DNA of 64,000 nt from Rhizomicrobium sp. (GTDB lineage Bacteria; Pseudomonadota; Alphaproteobacteria; Micropepsales; Micropepsaceae). Where the stretch lies: contig JBBCGL010000001.1 of NCBI GenBank assembly GCA_037200385.1, forward strand, positions 2,867,418 to 2,931,417, read 5' to 3'. The notes under the pieces are model-generated. The model was not told the DNA's origin. It made no database searches and worked only from the letters and a program-made list of their open reading frames with translations. Position numbers and translations under genes: made by a program. This document shows positions 45,885 through 52,754 of the stretch, piece by piece; the stretch's first letter is position 1, and each line of letters opens with the position of its first letter.

Positions 45885-45959
45885 GCGGGCGTAGCTCAGG
45901 GGTAGAGCATAACCTTGCCAAGGTTAGGGTCGACGGTTCGAATCCGTTCGCCCGCTCCA
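45885..45959 (+). tRNA. tRNA-Gly (GCC), integration site of the satellite element
   Basis: A 75-base gene starting GCGGGCGTAGCTCAGGGGTA and ending with encoded CCA. The anticodon arm AACCT-TGCCAA-GGTT has anticodon GCC. All stems pair. The part from the anticodon stem onward (from 45911) lies within the integrated element: a second copy of the 3' half, with a different T arm, lies at 52706-52754. The element therefore supplied a replacement 3' end that keeps the tRNA functional. Confidence 0.95.
45911..45932 (+). repeat. attL: 22-bp direct repeat in tRNA-Gly
   Basis: The 22 bases, beginning AACCTTGCCAAGGTTAGGG, are identical to 52706-52727. The repeat spans the anticodon stem-loop, the usual crossover position for tyrosine integrases using tRNA genes. 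Beyond the core the two copies differ in the T arm and become identical again over TCGCCCGCTCCAGGTTTTT. Confidence 0.88.
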
Positions 45960-46027
45960 GGTTTTTTTAAGAAAAATCAATATCTTATTTCGAAAGTTCG
46001 CTGGGCAACCGGCGAAGCCTTTTGCCC

Positions 46028-46049
46028 CAAGGTAAGCACTGGGTAAGCG
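46028..46049 (+). repeat. Integrase arm-type site, left
   Basis: This contains two direct GGTAAGC motifs (GGTAAGCAC and GGGTAAGC) 10-11 bp apart. An almost identical 22-bp block, same strand, lies at 52557-52578 just inside the other end. Paired repeats at both ends of an element, near att and int, are typical arm-type binding sites for a tyrosine integrase or its excisionase. Confidence 0.6.
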
Positions 46050-46141
46050 GCCGGAGCAATTTCATCTCAGGGATGGCTTAGCGGATTGTGGCGGGCCGCT
46101 CGGATACTAGCACCGAAGGGCCTGCCATCGGCCTCAAGCCG

Positions 46142-46372
46142 TCACTTGGACCGTGCGCGTCTGGGTGTTTGTTTCAGCAATTCCACCGCCTCTACCCCAA
46201 AGACATCAGCCAGCTTGCCAATTATCTCAAGCCCGGCATAGGTCGCGCCAGTTTCCAGCTTTGAAACGTAGGTCCGGTTGATCGCGGCTGCGTCGGCAAG
46301 TGCTTCTTGCGACAGCCCGTTTGCGTGCCGCAGACGGCGGAGGTTCGCTGCGAATACGCCCCGGAGGTCCAT
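46142..46372 (-). CDS. Cro/C1-type helix-turn-helix repressor
   Basis: A 76-residue protein from the ATG at 46372; a TTG at 46390 gives 82 residues. It consists almost only of an XRE/C1-type HTH: LRRLRHANGLSQEALADAAA, then NRTYVSKLETG as recognition helix. There is no peptidase or ligand domain. A 9-bp inverted repeat lies 18 bp upstream, so it is probably a self-controlled switch repressor of the element and of the divergent lipoprotein gene. Its relation to PICI master repressors (Stl) is by position only. Confidence 0.85.
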   Translation of the reverse strand: MDLRGVFAANLRRLRHANGLSQEALADAAAINRTYVSKLETGATYAGLEIIGKLADVFGVEAVELLKQTPRRARSK

Positions 46373-46390
46373 CCGGGAACGGAGAAACAA

Positions 46391-46423
46391 TGTTGCTTTT
46401 ACGGCAACCGCTTTAAAGCAACA
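46391..46423. promoter_or_regulatory. Operator for the element's repressor
   Basis: The perfect 9-bp inverted arms TGTTGCTTT (46391-46399) and AAAGCAACA (46415-46423) are 15 bp apart. The right arm overlaps a 10-bp palindrome, GCTTTAAAGC (46410-46419). The cluster sits between the repressor gene and the divergent lipoprotein gene, as expected for a C1-type dimer control region. Confidence 0.6.
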
Positions 46424-46486
46424 AAGTGTTTACCCGCATGGCGTTAAATCGCCGCCAGTGGCGACCATGGCTGCTCGGAGGCCTTC

Positions 46487-47065
46487 ATGCGCATTTCTCA
46501 TCTGATGGCTGCGCTACTCCTTGCGGGCTGCGCCCCAAGGTACACGTGGGACAACCCTAGCCTTGCGCCAGGCCTCGCAGATCGCCAGCGCGCCATCGAC
46601 TCGGCAGAATGCACAGCAACCGCGATGCGTGCGATTCCGCTGCCTGACCTGCCAGCGATCTCCACGACCGCGCCGAGCGGATACACGGTGAGCGGAACCA
46701 CCACTTCGTATGGCCCGAGCGGTCAGGTGCAAAATGGCTATTACAGCGGCACAGTTAGTGGAGGCGGTGATGCGGCCCAAGCCGGCGCCAACGCTTACCT
46801 CCTGATGCAGGCAGGTTTTGCTCGCTCTGCTGCGGTTCGTGCGCAGGCCAATTATGCCGCTGCCTGCATGATGCGGCGCGGCTGGGTGAAGGAGAAACCC
46901 GGCGAGCAGCCCAGCGTGGCATCAACAGCCATGCCACAAGTGCCGGAGACTTTGGTGCCCGCGCAGCAGAGCAGCCCACCGTCGAACGATACATTGCAGC
47001 CGGTCGTTTCTGTCGAGCAGCCGTTTCAGAGCTTCGATGATTGGCGGTCTGGCAAGAGACATTGA
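46487..47065 (+). CDS. Predicted lipoprotein, cargo of the element
   Basis: A 192-residue protein with a lipoprotein signal peptide (MRISHLMAALLLAGC, lipidated Cys15). The mature part has a Gly/Ser/Tyr-rich stretch (about 65-100) and a Pro/Ser-rich tail. Three Cys residues and MMRRGWV (about 131-137) resemble small lipoproteins of other proteobacteria, but I do not recognise a family. It would sit in the outer or inner membrane. Carriage on a satellite suggests a host-benefit or surface-modification role, such as interfering with other phages (inference). Confidence 0.72.
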   Translation: MRISHLMAALLLAGCAPRYTWDNPSLAPGLADRQRAIDSAECTATAMRAIPLPDLPAISTTAPSGYTVSGTTTSYGPSGQVQNGYYSGTVSGGGDAAQAGANAYLLMQAGFARSAAVRAQANYAAACMMRRGWVKEKPGEQPSVASTAMPQVPETLVPAQQSSPPSNDTLQPVVSVEQPFQSFDDWRSGKRH

Positions 47066-47231
47066 CCCCGGTGATCGCTTGTCGGTGCGCAAAGTTCGAT
47101 TCCGCCACTATCGCGAGTATCGATCTTGCGGCGCCACATGGTTCTTTTTATCGAAGGTGTATCCCCGGTGGGGTGGGGGGTCCCTTTTCAGGGTCAGGGT
47201 GTCGCGGAGACGCGATTGAGAGGGCGAGGCG

Positions 47232-47630
47232 ATGGCACTGATACTTGCTACGCTTGGCAGCGGCCGGCCGCTAGCTAGGAAGGCAATCGGGACTGTAGTC
47301 GCCGCGCTTGCTTTGTGTGGAGCGACTGCGGGGTGGCCACAAGAGGCCTCACAGCGGTCCCATGTGCAAGAGCGCGTTGCAGCCCAGCGCTGTGAGGAGC
47401 AGGTAGCCATCTTGGACAAATACGACCCAAAAAAGAACGAAGTGGATGGGGTTCGCTTGCAAGAACGCGAGTTCTGGGGGCAATTCCAAAAGCAGCTAGA
47501 TGGAACCTACGCAACGTGTTTGCGAGCGTGTGGGCTGGCGCGTGAAGCGTATGTGAATGGGGACAGGGCAGCCATATACGCGTGGCGGCGCGAGTGCGGC
47601 ATGGGCACCGCGCGAAATTCCACGGGCTAG
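47232..47630 (+). CDS. Predicted secreted protein, cargo of the element
   Basis: A 132-residue protein. Residues 1-37 form a signal peptide-like region (VVAALALCGATAGWPQEASQ). The mature part has five Cys residues (in RCEEQ, CLRACG and RECG), which suggests disulfide bonds and a periplasmic location. GAGGCG precedes the ATG. No family recognised. It lies 166 bp after the lipoprotein gene on the same strand. Confidence 0.62.
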   Translation: MALILATLGSGRPLARKAIGTVVAALALCGATAGWPQEASQRSHVQERVAAQRCEEQVAILDKYDPKKNEVDGVRLQEREFWGQFQKQLDGTYATCLRACGLAREAYVNGDRAAIYAWRRECGMGTARNSTG

Positions 47631-47755
47631 ATGACAGGCTCCACATTTCTGCGTGGACCACTCGTGTCGCCAGCGAGCGAGAGGGTCCCAAAAGTTGGCA
47701 TTCCAAAGCTACCCCCTGAGAGACTGTCAGGCGCGCTATTTGCATGCTCGCTTCG

Positions 47756-48229
47756 CTATTCTTCACCGTCGGCCGTCGCCGTGACTTCCATTCCGACCAC
47801 TTCGATGTCGGTGGCTCGCTCCTGGGCATCCAGCCTCGCGAGTAGTTCTTCAATCCCGACATGTGCCGTCATAGTCATGGACCGGGTTGGGGTGGGGCCT
47901 AGCGACGAGCGATTCAAAATTTCTTGTGCGGCGGAGATGCGAGCGTTCGACGGTGCGTGATGGTCAGCACAGATTTCCAAAAGGGTGCTGAACGCCGCCA
48001 GCGCGGCCAAATCGAAACGAGCCTTGATTTCCCCAACGATGGCCTTGGAGATGCGTGGCGATCCCATGAGGAACGCGGCGGCATCTGCCGCGCTTTCCAA
48101 GGTCTCGGCATACCCGGCTCGCAAAGCAGCTTCGGCGGCATACTGCGGGCCGCCCATCTCGAAGATGGCCGCCACGAACGCACGTTCGCGGGGCTCGGAA
48201 AGGTTAGCGATTGTGAGCACTTTGCGCAT
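47756..48229 (-). CDS. Terminase small subunit-like protein (TerS)
   Basis: A 157-residue protein from the ATG at 48229. The segment AFVAAIFEMGGPQYAAEAAL-RAGYAET followed by AADAAAFLMGSPRISKAI matches the phage small-terminase HTH pattern, in which a 'NATQAAIRAGY' helix pair precedes a 'LL-x-NP-x-V-x-x-I' helix. The C-terminal acidic part would oligomerise or contact the large subunit. No TerL lies nearby. In PICI elements a private TerS redirects helper packaging to satellite DNA; that role is inferred. It lies downstream of the iterons. Confidence 0.75.
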   Translation of the reverse strand: MRKVLTIANLSEPRERAFVAAIFEMGGPQYAAEAALRAGYAETLESAADAAAFLMGSPRISKAIVGEIKARFDLAALAAFSTLLEICADHHAPSNARISAAQEILNRSSLGPTPTRSMTMTAHVGIEELLARLDAQERATDIEVVGMEVTATADGEE

Positions 48230-48300
48230 GTCTGCCTCTACTGATTGACAACACGGCGTGTGCCAGGCGAGCCCAAAGCGAGCCGAAGGCACGTGGGGGT

Positions 48301-48318
48301 GTGGGGGACACCCCCCAC
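48301..48318. other. GC-rich hairpin beside the iterons
   Basis: The arms GTGGGGG (48301-48307) and CCCCCAC (48312-48318) form a perfect 7-bp stem around ACAC. It lies 5 bp from the first iteron. There is no T-run, so it is not a simple terminator; it may be part of the replication origin or shield the terS message. Confidence 0.5.
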
Positions 48319-48323
48319 CGTGT

Positions 48324-48399
48324 TTTCGACTGCGTTTCGACCAAGTTTCGACGTTGCTTTCGACATAACTTTCGACACGTTTTCGACGTGCTTTTCGAC
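48324..48399 (+). repeat. Iteron array: seven TTTCGAC copies in helical phase (putative origin)
   Basis: TTTCGAC occurs in the same direction at 48324, 48335, 48346, 48358, 48370, 48381 and 48393. The spacings are 11, 11, 12, 12, 11 and 12 bp, which places every copy on one face of the helix. It lies directly after the primase/helicase stop at 48437 and is flanked by a hairpin. Such phased repeats are the hallmark of initiator binding in iteron origins, and PICI elements carry their origin just after rep. Confidence 0.78.
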
Positions 48400-48436
48400 A
48401 TTGGCTCTTGCTGTTGCGATGGTCCCGTTGGCGCAC

Positions 48437-50338
48437 CTACCCGTCGCTCTGAGCAACGGAGTTCTTGGCTGCAACGGCAAGCGCTATCGCTTCATTTTCA
48501 TCGGGCGGATAGAACCCAGCTGTCCGCCTGTTTCCGCCCTCCACGAAGCGCAATTCACCCGCGTCAACGGCCAACTCCAATTCCCGGCGCACGTCTTGTT
48601 TCGACGGACGCCGGCCTAAGACCTTGATCGCCTGCTTCATGACACCTTCGTTGATGTGCTGCTTGTTGCAAGCCATGTGCTTACGCGCGGCGTCCTTCGC
48701 GCCCTCAATGCATGCCCGGTGGAACGCGGCGCCTAGACCGTCGGCCGGCTGCGGCGGGGGCAAATCCATGATTGTGCTACCGCAAAACCAAAGTCGCTTT
48801 TCTGCTTGCGCCCCATAATTGCTCTTGGCGACCGAGAGGCGGCGCGGCGGAGAACCATCTATAGGGTCGCCAGCCTCGCGCCCGGTAATTTCCAGTGTGA
48901 GGCGTTGCCGCACAGCGTTGTTGAAGGCGGTCGAGCCGCTGTAATGCGAGCCGTCCTGCATCGACGCTTTCGACGGATGGGCGAGAACTAGGACGGTCGC
49001 CCGGTAATCACGACAAAGACCGCCGAGCACCTGCTTTAGCGCCGCGTTGACCGGGAGCCGCAGGCTTTCATTCATCGCAAATAGGTCCGCCAGGCTATCG
49101 AGTATCACGAAGGCCGGCGCGCCGCATGACGCCAGCTCAGCACGCAAAGCGTGGAGGCGAGGTAACTCGGTCACGCTGCCATTGTCGTCAACTCGTGCGA
49201 GCAGTACTTCTCCCGCTGGCTGGCACCATAGCTTCATGGGCAATATGGGAAGCGTGTTCACATGACCTTCGCTCAGGATTGCCTTCGCCCGCATTTGCAC
49301 CTGCGCAGGGCCATCTTCGGCAAAGAGAGCGAGCACCGGCGTCTGCATGGTCGCCTTGCCAAAAAGGAGCTTGCCCGCGGCGGCTGCCAGCGCGACATGA
49401 AGCGCGAGCAGTGATTTGCCTGAGCCTCCATCTCCGAACAGCAAGTTTACTTCACCTTTGAGCACGAACTGATCCCATACCCACTCCGTGGGCGGATACG
49501 GCGTATCCAGCAATTGCGCGAGCGTCACCGGCGCCTCGAAAGTGTCGAGGCCCTTCACCGGACGCGTTTCGGGTGAACTGAGAAGCGCAACGAAGGACCT
49601 TGCGCCGTGGGCAGCGAGGAAGTCATCCAATCCCTGCTTCCGGCCCTCTGCCGTATGTGGAATTGCTACCTCGTAGATCCTGGCACCTTCGGCAAGCAAG
49701 AGCATCGCGAGTCTGTCTGTTGCCGCGCGCGCTTCTGGCTTATGGGTTACATCCGAATCGAACGCAAAGAAAATTCGTCGGCCCTTCAGCACAACGGCGG
49801 CGAGGTCAGGATGGAGTCTCCCCTCCAGTTGTCCGCAATCCACGCCCGTGATGGACACAACGGGGATCGGCATGTCGTGATCGCATATCGCGCCAGCAAG
49901 CGAGCGTGTTTCACCTTCTGTCAGAACCAAATCGACGCCGGGATCAGCGAGAACGGCCGCCCAATCCACCGCGGGGTGCGGGGCGAAGTAGACGCGCACG
50001 CCACTGTTGCGTGGTTGCAGGAATTTTGGCGCCCCTGGCGATTGGGGTCCCAAGGGTCGAACTCGCTGGAACGCGCAAGCGCACCCTCGTTCATCGGTGA
50101 ACATCATCGGTTCGCCGGTATTCGGATCGAAGAACCGAAAAACGAGAGCAGGACCGCGCGGAAAGATCGGATCGATCGCGCGAGCGCTCGGCACAATATC
50201 ACCACCGGCAATCTCAAATTGCTTAAGCGTGATCCCGCGTGCAATGAGATATTCACGCGCCACCCGCCTGTAAGGAGGTTCATTGGCTTGGCGCGCGGAT
50301 GCCGGCGCGCGGGCCACGGCTTGGGTCAGTGCAACCAT
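48437..50338 (-). CDS. TOPRIM primase - AAA helicase replication protein (pri-rep)
   Basis: A 633-residue protein. Residues about 20-250 form a DUF3854/TOPRIM-like primase region with LTEGETRSLAG (Glu141) and the FAFDSD acidic motif (194-196). Residues about 270-500 form a RepA/RecA-type AAA domain with Walker A GDGGSGKS (302-309) and Walker B FVILDSLADL. The C-terminal 100 residues look like a winged-helix DNA-binding part (RPSKQDVRRELELAVDAGEL). It probably opens and primes the iteron origin located just behind it. It follows the small unknown gene by 6 bp. Confidence 0.85.
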   Translation of the reverse strand: MVALTQAVARAPASARQANEPPYRRVAREYLIARGITLKQFEIAGGDIVPSARAIDPIFPRGPALVFRFFDPNTGEPMMFTDERGCACAFQRVRPLGPQSPGAPKFLQPRNSGVRVYFAPHPAVDWAAVLADPGVDLVLTEGETRSLAGAICDHDMPIPVVSITGVDCGQLEGRLHPDLAAVVLKGRRIFFAFDSDVTHKPEARAATDRLAMLLLAEGARIYEVAIPHTAEGRKQGLDDFLAAHGARSFVALLSSPETRPVKGLDTFEAPVTLAQLLDTPYPPTEWVWDQFVLKGEVNLLFGDGGSGKSLLALHVALAAAAGKLLFGKATMQTPVLALFAEDGPAQVQMRAKAILSEGHVNTLPILPMKLWCQPAGEVLLARVDDNGSVTELPRLHALRAELASCGAPAFVILDSLADLFAMNESLRLPVNAALKQVLGGLCRDYRATVLVLAHPSKASMQDGSHYSGSTAFNNAVRQRLTLEITGREAGDPIDGSPPRRLSVAKSNYGAQAEKRLWFCGSTIMDLPPPQPADGLGAAFHRACIEGAKDAARKHMACNKQHINEGVMKQAIKVLGRRPSKQDVRRELELAVDAGELRFVEGGNRRTAGFYPPDENEAIALAVAAKNSVAQSDG

Positions 50339-50344
50339 GACACG

Positions 50345-50746
50345 TCATTCCAGTGATCGCCGGCGCGCATGGAGTGCTCCAACGCTGCCGACAACGAAAT
50401 TGAGTTCTCTGTTGGTAAGCTCGCGACGCTCCGAATCAAGCAGCCAGCGGCGCGCAAACGGCCGCCCCGCCTTTTTGAAGGCAAGAACGTCAATTCTTCT
50501 CCAGCCGACACATCTTCCGGTCGCTATCGAAACGATTTCTCCGGCGCGCGGTCCATCCACTACGACCGCGAACTGCCCATTGATGAGCCGCATGAGCTGC
50601 GCATGCCTTTCGGTTTTGTCCTTGAGCACCGCCGCTTGGTAATCAGGTCCGCCGGTCAACCAAAGCACCCGCTGGAGCTGTTCCAATTGCTTGAGCTTGG
50701 ATTTACTCACAGCGTGCTCCCGACTTTGAAAGTGCGCGGAAGCCAT
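50345..50746 (-). CDS. Unknown protein of the element, between alpA-like and pri-rep genes
   Basis: A 133-residue basic protein with a coiled start (SKSKLKQLEQLQRVLWLT) and a strand-like middle (FAVVVDGPRAGEIVSIATGR). It has no signal peptide or known motif I recognise. Its place, upstream of and 6 bp from the replication gene, is that of small regulatory or replication partners in PICI-type elements. Confidence 0.62.
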   Translation of the reverse strand: MASAHFQSREHAVSKSKLKQLEQLQRVLWLTGGPDYQAAVLKDKTERHAQLMRLINGQFAVVVDGPRAGEIVSIATGRCVGWRRIDVLAFKKAGRPFARRWLLDSERRELTNRELNFVVGSVGALHARRRSLE

Positions 50747-50781
50747 CTCCCTGTGCGGCGCTCGGCGCCGTCTGGCCTATG

Positions 50782-51009
50782 TCAGACATCGGCGTATTCT
50801 GCCGTGCTGGCGTGTTTATGGGCGTCGAGCCAGGTATCCAGGTCGCTCGGGTGATACCGGACCTTCCGACCAAGTTTGAGAAATCGAGGGCCACCGCCAA
50901 AGCAGCGAAGTTTTGCGAGGTGTTGGGGACGAAGGCCAACATAGTCGCCCGCCGCGGTCGGATCGAGAAGCTGCACAGCATGCAGCTTTGATTTAGGAAA
51001 TTCAGGCAT
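50782..51009 (-). CDS. alpA: AlpA/Xis-like helix-turn-helix protein
   Basis: A 75-residue MerR-like HTH protein. The motif TAAGDYVGLRPQHLAKLR, then GPRFLKLGRKVRYHPSDLDTWL, is the AlpA/excisionase fold (HTH_17). In P4 and in Gram-negative PICIs, AlpA controls integrase expression and excision. The gene is 274 bp from the integrase gene start side and 35 bp before the unknown gene. Confidence 0.85.
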   Translation of the reverse strand: MPEFPKSKLHAVQLLDPTAAGDYVGLRPQHLAKLRCFGGGPRFLKLGRKVRYHPSDLDTWLDAHKHASTAEYADV

Positions 51010-51283
51010 TGGAACACTCCCCAGAGCAGCGCGCAGATTGCCGCGTGCTCCACGTTGAACGACTGGGTTTGGAGCGTTCTTCCGAGAACTTCGGTAGCGT
51101 CCACGTTCCTTTGGGACGAAGGGTGTTCTTGCCTAAGCGCGCTACACCGGAAGCGGACGGCACCTTCTAGCACCGTAGTACATCGAAGTACCGCGCCAAT
51201 GTAAGAGCGAAATTTGTCGCCATGTCAAGGTCGTTGGAGTTCGGTGGCACGATCCGGTAGCAGCGAGCGGTATCTGGGCGCCG

Positions 51284-52549
51284 CTATCCGAAACGGAGCA
51301 CGGTCCCCACTTCATCGGTGCCATCGAGCGCGTTGGCGAGCGACACCGCGATACGGTCGGCGGCGGCGATTAGCGCGGGATCAGGTGCAGTCGCATAGCG
51401 GCCCGTGATTCCCCGCTTCGCATGACCGAGCAGTGCGCCGATAATTAGGTCGGAATAGCCCAATTCGGTCGCCGCGCTGGCGAACCAATGGCGTAACCCG
51501 TGAAGAGTCACGCCTTCCAGCTTGGCGCGCTCAGCGGTGCGCTTCCATATATGAGGTAGACCGACTAGGTGCCCGGCCTTGGATGCCGTGGCAAAAACAA
51601 AGTCATCGGACTTCGCGCCGTCGGGCTTCACACTAGCCAAGTGAGCAAGCGCGCTACGGCCTAACGCCCGAACCTGCTTTCCACTTTTGGTGTCATCGAA
51701 CCGCGTGCAACGCGCGCCTACGTCAATCATACCCCACTTAAGTGTCAGCGCCTCCATGCGGCGAAAGCCAGTGAGCAAGAGCAAGCGGATCGCAGCAAGA
51801 CCTTTGACGTTCTCATCTTCGTTGGCCGCCGCGCGCATGGCATTGCCCAAGGCTTTGACCTTTTCGAACGAAAATGGAGGTGCTGCCGCTTGGTCCTTGG
51901 GTCGCTTGATTCCCCGCACGGGATTCTTCGCAAGAGCGCCATCGCGAACAGCGCGCTCCAGGATCGTGCCCAGCATGCCTAACGTCCGCGAGGCCACGCC
52001 GGGACCGCCCTTGGCCACGCCACCTTTGGGACGCTTTGTCTTGTTAATGTCGGCAGACTTTGGACGCGGCGCGACGCTCTTTCCAGCCATCACGTCGCGC
52101 AGGAATTTTTCCATGTCCGCATGCGTGAGACTGGCGACGGCACGGCTGCCCAAAAGCGGCTTTACGTGGCGTTCGACCCGGCTTGCATCCATCAGCAACG
52201 TGCTGGCTTTAATGCGCCCCTTGCCGGCCGCTAGATATTCGTCGCAGAGCTGGGCAACAGTCACGGCCGTTCTCGCCGCTCCCCGCTCATGCGCGGGATC
52301 GGCCCCGTCAGAAATCGCAACAAACAGTCTGGTGGCCTTCTTGCGGGCCTCCTTGGGCGTGAACTTCGAGAAGGCGCCGATGGTGTAACGGCGACTTCGG
52401 CCATGCTTGTTGCGGTACTGGATCAGCCACGACCTTGCACCCGACGGCTTTACCCGGACGCCAAAGCCCGCCAGTTCCTCATCAAAGACCACCTGATCAG
52501 TCTGGGACGGCTTTATGTCGTTCACGGCACGTTTTGTTAGCTTGACCAT
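51284..52549 (-). CDS. int: Tyrosine-recombinase integrase (P4-type)
   Basis: A 421-residue integrase. The N-terminal DUF4102-like part (LTKRAVNDIKPSQTDQVVFD) marks P4-type integrases. The catalytic residues are Arg263 (TGFRRME), His350 and Arg353 (HGLR), His376 (LLGH) and Tyr385 (GRYA). It lies next to attR, with a paired arm-type site 7 bp beyond its start. It would insert the element into the tRNA-Gly anticodon arm. Confidence 0.94.
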   Translation of the reverse strand: MVKLTKRAVNDIKPSQTDQVVFDEELAGFGVRVKPSGARSWLIQYRNKHGRSRRYTIGAFSKFTPKEARKKATRLFVAISDGADPAHERGAARTAVTVAQLCDEYLAAGKGRIKASTLLMDASRVERHVKPLLGSRAVASLTHADMEKFLRDVMAGKSVAPRPKSADINKTKRPKGGVAKGGPGVASRTLGMLGTILERAVRDGALAKNPVRGIKRPKDQAAAPPFSFEKVKALGNAMRAAANEDENVKGLAAIRLLLLTGFRRMEALTLKWGMIDVGARCTRFDDTKSGKQVRALGRSALAHLASVKPDGAKSDDFVFATASKAGHLVGLPHIWKRTAERAKLEGVTLHGLRHWFASAATELGYSDLIIGALLGHAKRGITGRYATAPDPALIAAADRIAVSLANALDGTDEVGTVLRFG

Positions 52550-52556
52550 CCGCCCT

Positions 52557-52578
52557 CCAAGGTAAGCATAGGGTAAGC
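52557..52578 (+). repeat. Integrase arm-type site, right
   Basis: Two GGTAAGC motifs, in the same order and direction as at 46028-46049, with only two mismatches over 22 bp. It lies in the leader of the integrase gene, so binding could also repress int. Confidence 0.6.
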
Positions 52579-52705
52579 AATTTGCGGGAACTCAGCGGCA
52601 CCCTGCAGAAACCTACGGTATGCCAACATCGAGTTAACTTACTGAATTTAGTACAGTTTGTAGTATCGCGGAATTTAGGGGTATTGGCAAGAATAAAGAT
52701 ATTCC

Positions 52706-52754
52706 AACCTTGCCAAGGTTAGGGTCGGGCGTTCGATTCGCCTCGCCCGCTCCA
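52706..52754 (+). pseudogene. attR: displaced 3' half of the original tRNA-Gly
   Basis: The 22-bp core (52706-52727) equals attL. It continues as a T arm (GGGCG-TTCGATT-CGCCT) and the acceptor end with CCA. These are the chromosomal original; it has no 5' half and cannot be expressed as tRNA. The T arm differs from that in the functional gene, which came from the element. Confidence 0.88.

Follow-up and report, generated by a model that had tools for sequence, protein, structure and literature searches.

Phage-inducible chromosomal islands (PICIs) are described, in an excerpt of PMC6092414, as having the gene order integrase, regulator, pri-rep, origin and then, where present, terS, with no structural or lytic genes; Gram-positive PICIs are typically about 15 kb in size, and the origin of Gram-negative PICIs consists of two iteron sets around an AT-rich region, 3' of rep. 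The phage-inducible chromosomal minimalist islands (PICMI), according to an excerpt of PMC10803314, average 6.7 kb and insert at fis, with PICMI115 lacking terS. Here, we describe an element in the Rhizomicrobium sp. contig JBBCGL010000001.1, at positions 45911-52727 of the window (the whole stretch of 64,000 nucleotides that was analysed), which is probably a minimal phage satellite whose own small terminase (TerS) would redirect the packaging motor of a helper. It would most likely spread by hijacking particles that a virus of its host bacterium makes. No alphaproteobacterial PICI-like satellite was found among the literature matches listed (titles and abstract starts), and an earlier description is possible.

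The element measures 6.8 kb between its attachment cores and is inserted in tRNA-Gly(GCC). The core, AACCTTGCCAAGGTTAGGGTCG, is 22 bp long and identical at both ends, within a 56-nt repeat showing 88% identity. The features that define the boundaries are as follows.

45885-45959, plus strand: tRNA-Gly(GCC) predicted by ARAGORN; from about 45911 onwards, the 3' half is the copy brought in by the element (T-arm ACGG-TTCGAAT-CCGT)
45911-45932, plus strand: left attachment core, 22 bp, direct repeat
46031-46048, plus strand: left pair of GGTAAGC motifs whose starts are 11 nt apart, probably arm-type sites of the integrase
52561-52578, plus strand: right GGTAAGC motif pair, probable integrase arm-type sites; the same pair stands at both ends of L072
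52706-52762, plus strand: displaced native 3' half of tRNA-Gly and the bases following it, 57/57 identical to L062; the right core (52706-52727) lies inside

The host's tRNA half has been displaced to the right, and the tRNA gene is made whole again by the 3' half that came with the element. This exchange follows from the match between the displaced copy and the native tRNA 3' end of the congener L062 and from the distribution of T-arms among congeners. The 5' pattern of the tRNA-Gly matched in 79 of the 96 family genomes (75 once and 4 twice; once in the window's genome). T-arms identical to the displaced right-hand copy were present in 15 of the 30 tRNA-Gly loci compared; 13 loci had other T-arms, one was cut short, and one (L059) shared its T-arm with the intact tRNA of the window, as did L072, a locus added separately to the 30. 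All three loci with the element-type T-arm had the GGTAAGC pair downstream of tRNA-Gly, compared with 0 of 29 other loci examined (one without downstream sequence and four with less than 300 nt). Islands whose integrases are more distant (L017, L071, L073, L074, and L076) lacked it. These pairs are probably the arm sites of this integrase subtype. The G+C content of the element was 0.59-0.61 compared with 0.65-0.71 in the flanks, other stretches of the window being equally low.

One further locus, L059 (the tRNA-Gly of genome G025), has the element-type T-arm and the motif pair, yet no integrase was found in that genome at E 1e-60; it may represent an element end whose integrase was lost or has diverged.

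The minus strand carries, in order, the integrase gene (int), a gene for an AlpA-like helix-turn-helix (HTH) protein, orf133, rep, the iterons, and terS; after terS come the plus-strand genes orf132 and orf192 and, at the far end, a minus-strand C1-type HTH gene. The leftward module comprises the following features.

51284-52549, minus strand: tyrosine integrase, 421 aa (Phage_integrase 2.4e-17, Arm-DNA-bind_3 5.4e-17)
50782-51009, minus strand: AlpA/excisionase-like HTH protein, 75 aa (HTH_17 1.9e-5; 25.3 bits, just below the 27-bit cut-off)
50345-50746, minus strand: orf133, a short gene separating alpA from rep (Pfam, PHROGs, and PADLOC gave no match below E 0.3)
48437-50338, minus strand: rep, encoding DUF3854 and an AAA_25 helicase (AAA_25 1.1e-26, DUF3854 3.5e-13; Pfam)
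48324-48399, minus strand: seven GTCGAAA iterons at a spacing of 11-12 nt, directly behind the rep stop codon
47756-48229, minus strand: terS, small terminase, 157 aa (four-member profile against PDB; second look by structure)

Searches of Pfam and PHROGs with the eight open reading frames (ORFs) recognised no virion (portal, capsid, head, and tail), lysis, or large terminase (TerL) family and no relaxase or mobilisation family, and no capsid-resizing gene was recognised among the element genes. The AlpA-like type of HTH gene recurs in eight related elements, again placed between int and rep. A first-pass annotation of the window had proposed a 6.8-kb element in tRNA-Gly without virion genes and TerL, with the order int-alpA-small gene-pri-rep-iterons-TerS and a C1-type repressor at the far end. 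The core repeat, the ARAGORN prediction, and the T-arm exchange agree with that placement, the Pfam and PHROGs matches together with the iteron count bear out the order, the eight ORFs hold none of the families said to be missing, and the far-end gene matched HTH_31 (1.2e-13).

The start of TerS appears better placed at 48229 (157 aa) than in the 226-aa frame, because the longer frame crosses the iterons and the related element L011 has the same start. Scans with the single protein were weak (Terminase_2 0.052, below the cut-off; phrog_51 0.0047), and neither phage records nor plain Foldseek gave a match. A four-member TerS profile (A2) showed six matches to PDB at E up to 1, all of which were small terminases (E 0.0029-0.049), and SF6 TerS ranked first in the structural second look. 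The N-terminal HTH domain and helical core expected of small terminases are present, and relatives from other families (L090, L091, and L093) scored above the Terminase_2 cut-off. The identity as TerS is well supported by the family profile, with moderate support from structure.

Rep appears to combine a TOPRIM-like primase half with a helicase half. Motifs read by eye in the DUF3854 half (E141-G-E, D194-S-D, and D238-D) suggest the TOPRIM-like character, and this half matched plasmid replication proteins annotated CyRepA1. The helicase half matched RepA in the PDB (1g8y; 3.8e-8, residues 272-359), the helicase of RSF1010. The Rep of L011 showed 59% identity over 627 aa; phage records gave partial matches at up to 33% identity. 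The GTCGAAA motif occurred seven times, whereas 2000 dinucleotide shuffles of this 91-nt stretch gave three at most; the motif was chosen from the tested stretch, is found at two other places in the element, and has 18 occurrences across the window on both strands together. A G/C-rich inverted repeat, seen by eye, lies between the iterons and terS at about 48294-48321. The array is a probable replication origin. Behind rep, repeats of other sequence are supported by count for L015 and L090, are weak in L012, were seen by eye in L011 and L017, and are not clear in L013.

A separate stretch, L119:8124-12989, holds integrase-like and Prim-Pol-like helicase genes (by eye; A3 match 1.4e-63). A C1-type HTH gene lies close by, and TerS was not found; the stretch appears to be a replication-module relative in an element not evidently a satellite.

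Searching the 96 family genomes with the A2 profile at E 0.001 gave matches in eight, four of them strong, namely the window's own genome and those of L011 (PKWC01000221.1, alphaproteobacterial metagenome-assembled genome palsa_914), L012, and L013. Each of these three relatives contains a tyrosine integrase, an HTH_17-type gene, a DUF3854 Rep, and TerS. L012 and L013 are bounded by exact tRNA-Ser duplications (39 and 40 bp), and the L011 contig begins in a tRNA-Ser-like stretch, with one end visible only. In the four elements of the genus, terS follows rep despite different integrases, and the C-terminal halves of rep differ in L012 and L013. Between the window and L011, nonsynonymous divergence (dN) was 0.34 for rep and 0.37 for terS, against a synonymous divergence (dS) of about 2, which is saturated and gives no exact ratio; these values suggest that both genes have been maintained. 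Ten proteins of the TerS-only elements L012 and L013 included no head or tail families and one weak holin match.

L013 also contains, at L013:2982-8410 inside the tRNA-Ser duplication, genes for a solute-binding protein and an ABC transporter ATPase (Pfam) with genes between them, possibly transporter cargo of a TerS element.

At class level, the A2 profile at 1e-9 matched at least five of 385 genomes, the window's own included (at most nine candidates were scored per genome, and L092 was not counted). L090 and L093 lie at tRNA-Lys duplications, and L091 is a short contig. The first-pass annotation had called for relatives at other sites, and related elements were found at tRNA-Ser, tRNA-Lys, and tRNA-Ala. 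Four larger elements (L014, L015, L017, and L090; 13-15 kb) are integrated in tRNA genes and carry int, an HTH_17 gene, a primase-helicase, TerS, and their own TerL of the Terminase_6N/6C type. No portal, capsid, or tail protein was recognised among their scanned proteins, which are part of their ORFs (PHROGs, ten proteins of L015/L017/L090 and ten of L014; Pfam, ten of L017 including TerL and TerS). They possibly form a second satellite type that brings a whole terminase.

Compared with Gram-negative PICIs as outlined in the PMC6092414 excerpt, the element is alike in having int, alpA, a primase-rep gene, an origin just 3' of rep, and terS (present in some PICIs), in lacking virion genes, and in having most genes in one direction. 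It differs in having a single direct iteron set with a G/C-rich inverted repeat, DUF3854 with a RepA-like Rep, an alphaproteobacterial host, two opposing accessory ORFs, and a far-end C1-type HTH gene, and at 6.8 kb it is about half the size of Gram-positive PICIs (PMC6092414). The earlier interpretation was upheld in part, namely for an integrated mobile element, the PICI-like gene order, iterons behind rep, TerS, the absence of recognised virion genes, and relatives at other sites. Since order and gene content fit, size and origin do not, and the tie to a helper phage that PICIs have in induction, packaging, and interference is a prediction for this element, we would label it PICI-like and would not file it as a PICI, the comparison being one of described features only. 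Staphylococcus aureus pathogenicity islands (SaPIs) with pac packaging likewise have their own TerS, thought to redirect helper packaging, but the element has no divergent Stl-type repressor layout and no recognised capsid morphogenesis genes (PMC6092414, excerpt). PICMI are alike in size, in the int-alpA-primase core (at domain level, alpA being just below the cut-off), and in having no capsid-remodelling gene, whereas the element sits in tRNA-Gly instead of fis and carries terS (PMC10803314, excerpt). Capsid-forming PICIs (cf-PICIs) are also satellites with packaging genes of their own, but the capsid, portal, and terminases reported for them (PMC10690885, excerpt) have no counterpart in the element in the form of a portal, capsid, or connector gene, and none of these was recognised in the sister elements with TerS and TerL either.

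The host genome (5.01 Mb, single contig) contains head and packaging genes elsewhere. A search at order level gave the same 96 genomes of a single family, which would fit Micropepsales. A cluster resembling the Rhodobacter capsulatus gene transfer agent (RcGTA) lies at G000:C1 about 2.955-2.970 Mb (L097) and encodes TerL, portal, capsid, and a GTA_TIM-domain protein. A siphophage-like prophage at G000:C1 about 2.268-2.318 Mb (L105-L107, approximate ends) encodes TerL, portal, capsid, and tape measure. The TerL of this prophage matched phrog_9 best and escaped the phrog_2 search. Both the cluster and the prophage are possible helpers, and neither shared long DNA with the element beyond background. 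The resident prophage and an outside phage are the leading helper candidates, and a helper from outside is equally possible.

In the proposed cycle, the integrase would insert the element in tRNA-Gly with restoration of the tRNA by the element's 3' half, as its sequence records. The AlpA-like protein, made once a helper is active, would drive excision and the leftward operon, by analogy with PICI and PICMI biology. Rep would then start replication at the iterons behind its gene, an action suggested by the architecture, and TerS may bind the element's packaging site and load the DNA onto the helper's TerL for filling of helper heads. Because no capsid-resizing gene was recognised, packing may take the form of concatemers inside heads of full size.

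We consider a satellite probable because attachment sites with a tRNA exchange, support for TerS, iterons behind rep, and recurrence in the genus occur together, because the motif pairs at both ends are shared with L072 despite its different cargo, because rep and terS look maintained, and because head and packaging genes exist elsewhere in the genome and TerS exceeds the Pfam cut-off in relatives. Weighing against it, relatives of the Rep helicase occur in seven other stretches (L115-L121) without clear TerS, one of them with a weak TerS, and judged by these relatives the helicase half is not a satellite marker. Such relatives, the resemblance of the helicase half to plasmid RepA, and the CyRepA1-type matches of the DUF3854 half would suit an integrative plasmid-like element, in which Rep and the iterons keep a circle that moves by conjugation or transformation with TerS as a passenger. 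We regard this as unlikely, since the eight ORFs include no relaxase or mobilisation family, terS stands behind rep in four elements of the genus with different integrases (with other rep C-terminal halves in L012 and L013), and terS looks maintained between the window and L011.

Decay of a prophage, with loss of the head and tail genes and retention of int, replication genes, and terS, all of which are prophage genes too, would also account for the content, and the larger elements L014, L015, L017, and L090 do carry both TerS and TerL; the exact attachment core, the absence of any broken core gene or recognised virion gene, the similar compact order at different tRNAs, and the apparent maintenance of rep and terS make such a remnant very unlikely. 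Packaging by the resident RcGTA-like agent, with TerS giving DNA specificity and steering its motor to the element, would draw on a cluster that has TerL, portal, capsid, and the GTA_TIM protein, and whose TerL shares Terminase_6N and 6C with the four larger sisters, while the prophage TerL is best matched by phrog_9. The Terminase_6 family is very large, the element exceeds the roughly 4 kb that fit into Rhodobacter GTA particles, and no DNA beyond background is shared with the cluster, so we give this explanation very little credence; if true, GTA parasitism would make a dedicated carrier out of a device that shuttles genes at random.

Together with its relatives, the element suggests a modular group: integrases, replication proteins, and iterons are swapped, the AlpA-like gene and TerS stay, and some members gain a TerL, yet no capsid that was recognised. 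As a satellite, it would bring helper-dependent transfer to a class in which gene transfer agents abound, and it offers a compact test case of how little a satellite needs for packaging.

The remaining genes lie beyond terS.

47232-47630, plus strand: orf132, accessory (no family better than E 0.07 in Pfam, PHROGs, and PADLOC)
46487-47065, plus strand: orf192, accessory, with a lipoprotein-like start by eye (no family in Pfam, PHROGs, and PADLOC)
46142-46390, minus strand: Cro/C1-type HTH regulator, 82 aa (HTH_31 1.2e-13)

The C1-type regulator has a relative with 72% identity in L017; those in L012 and L013 share 46-52% across roughly 50 aa.

Integrases 49-64% identical to that of the element were found in L017, L071, L072, L073, and L074, all at the same tRNA-Gly. 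The integrase of L072 is 64% identical, and its cargo is different. Since other cargo reaches tRNA-Gly elsewhere by way of this integrase type, the integrase is, by these comparisons, a part shared among islands and no mark of a satellite. PICIs are described as occupying attachment sites that prophages never use. At this tRNA-Gly no prophage was seen, L071, L073, L076, and L078 being outside the family scan; its occupants were defence-gene islands (L072 and L074/L075) and the TerS-TerL element L017. The anti-phage genes of L072 are type III restriction genes and a DrmD gene of DISARM-like type, and those of L074/L075 are of the Zorya and Druantia types.

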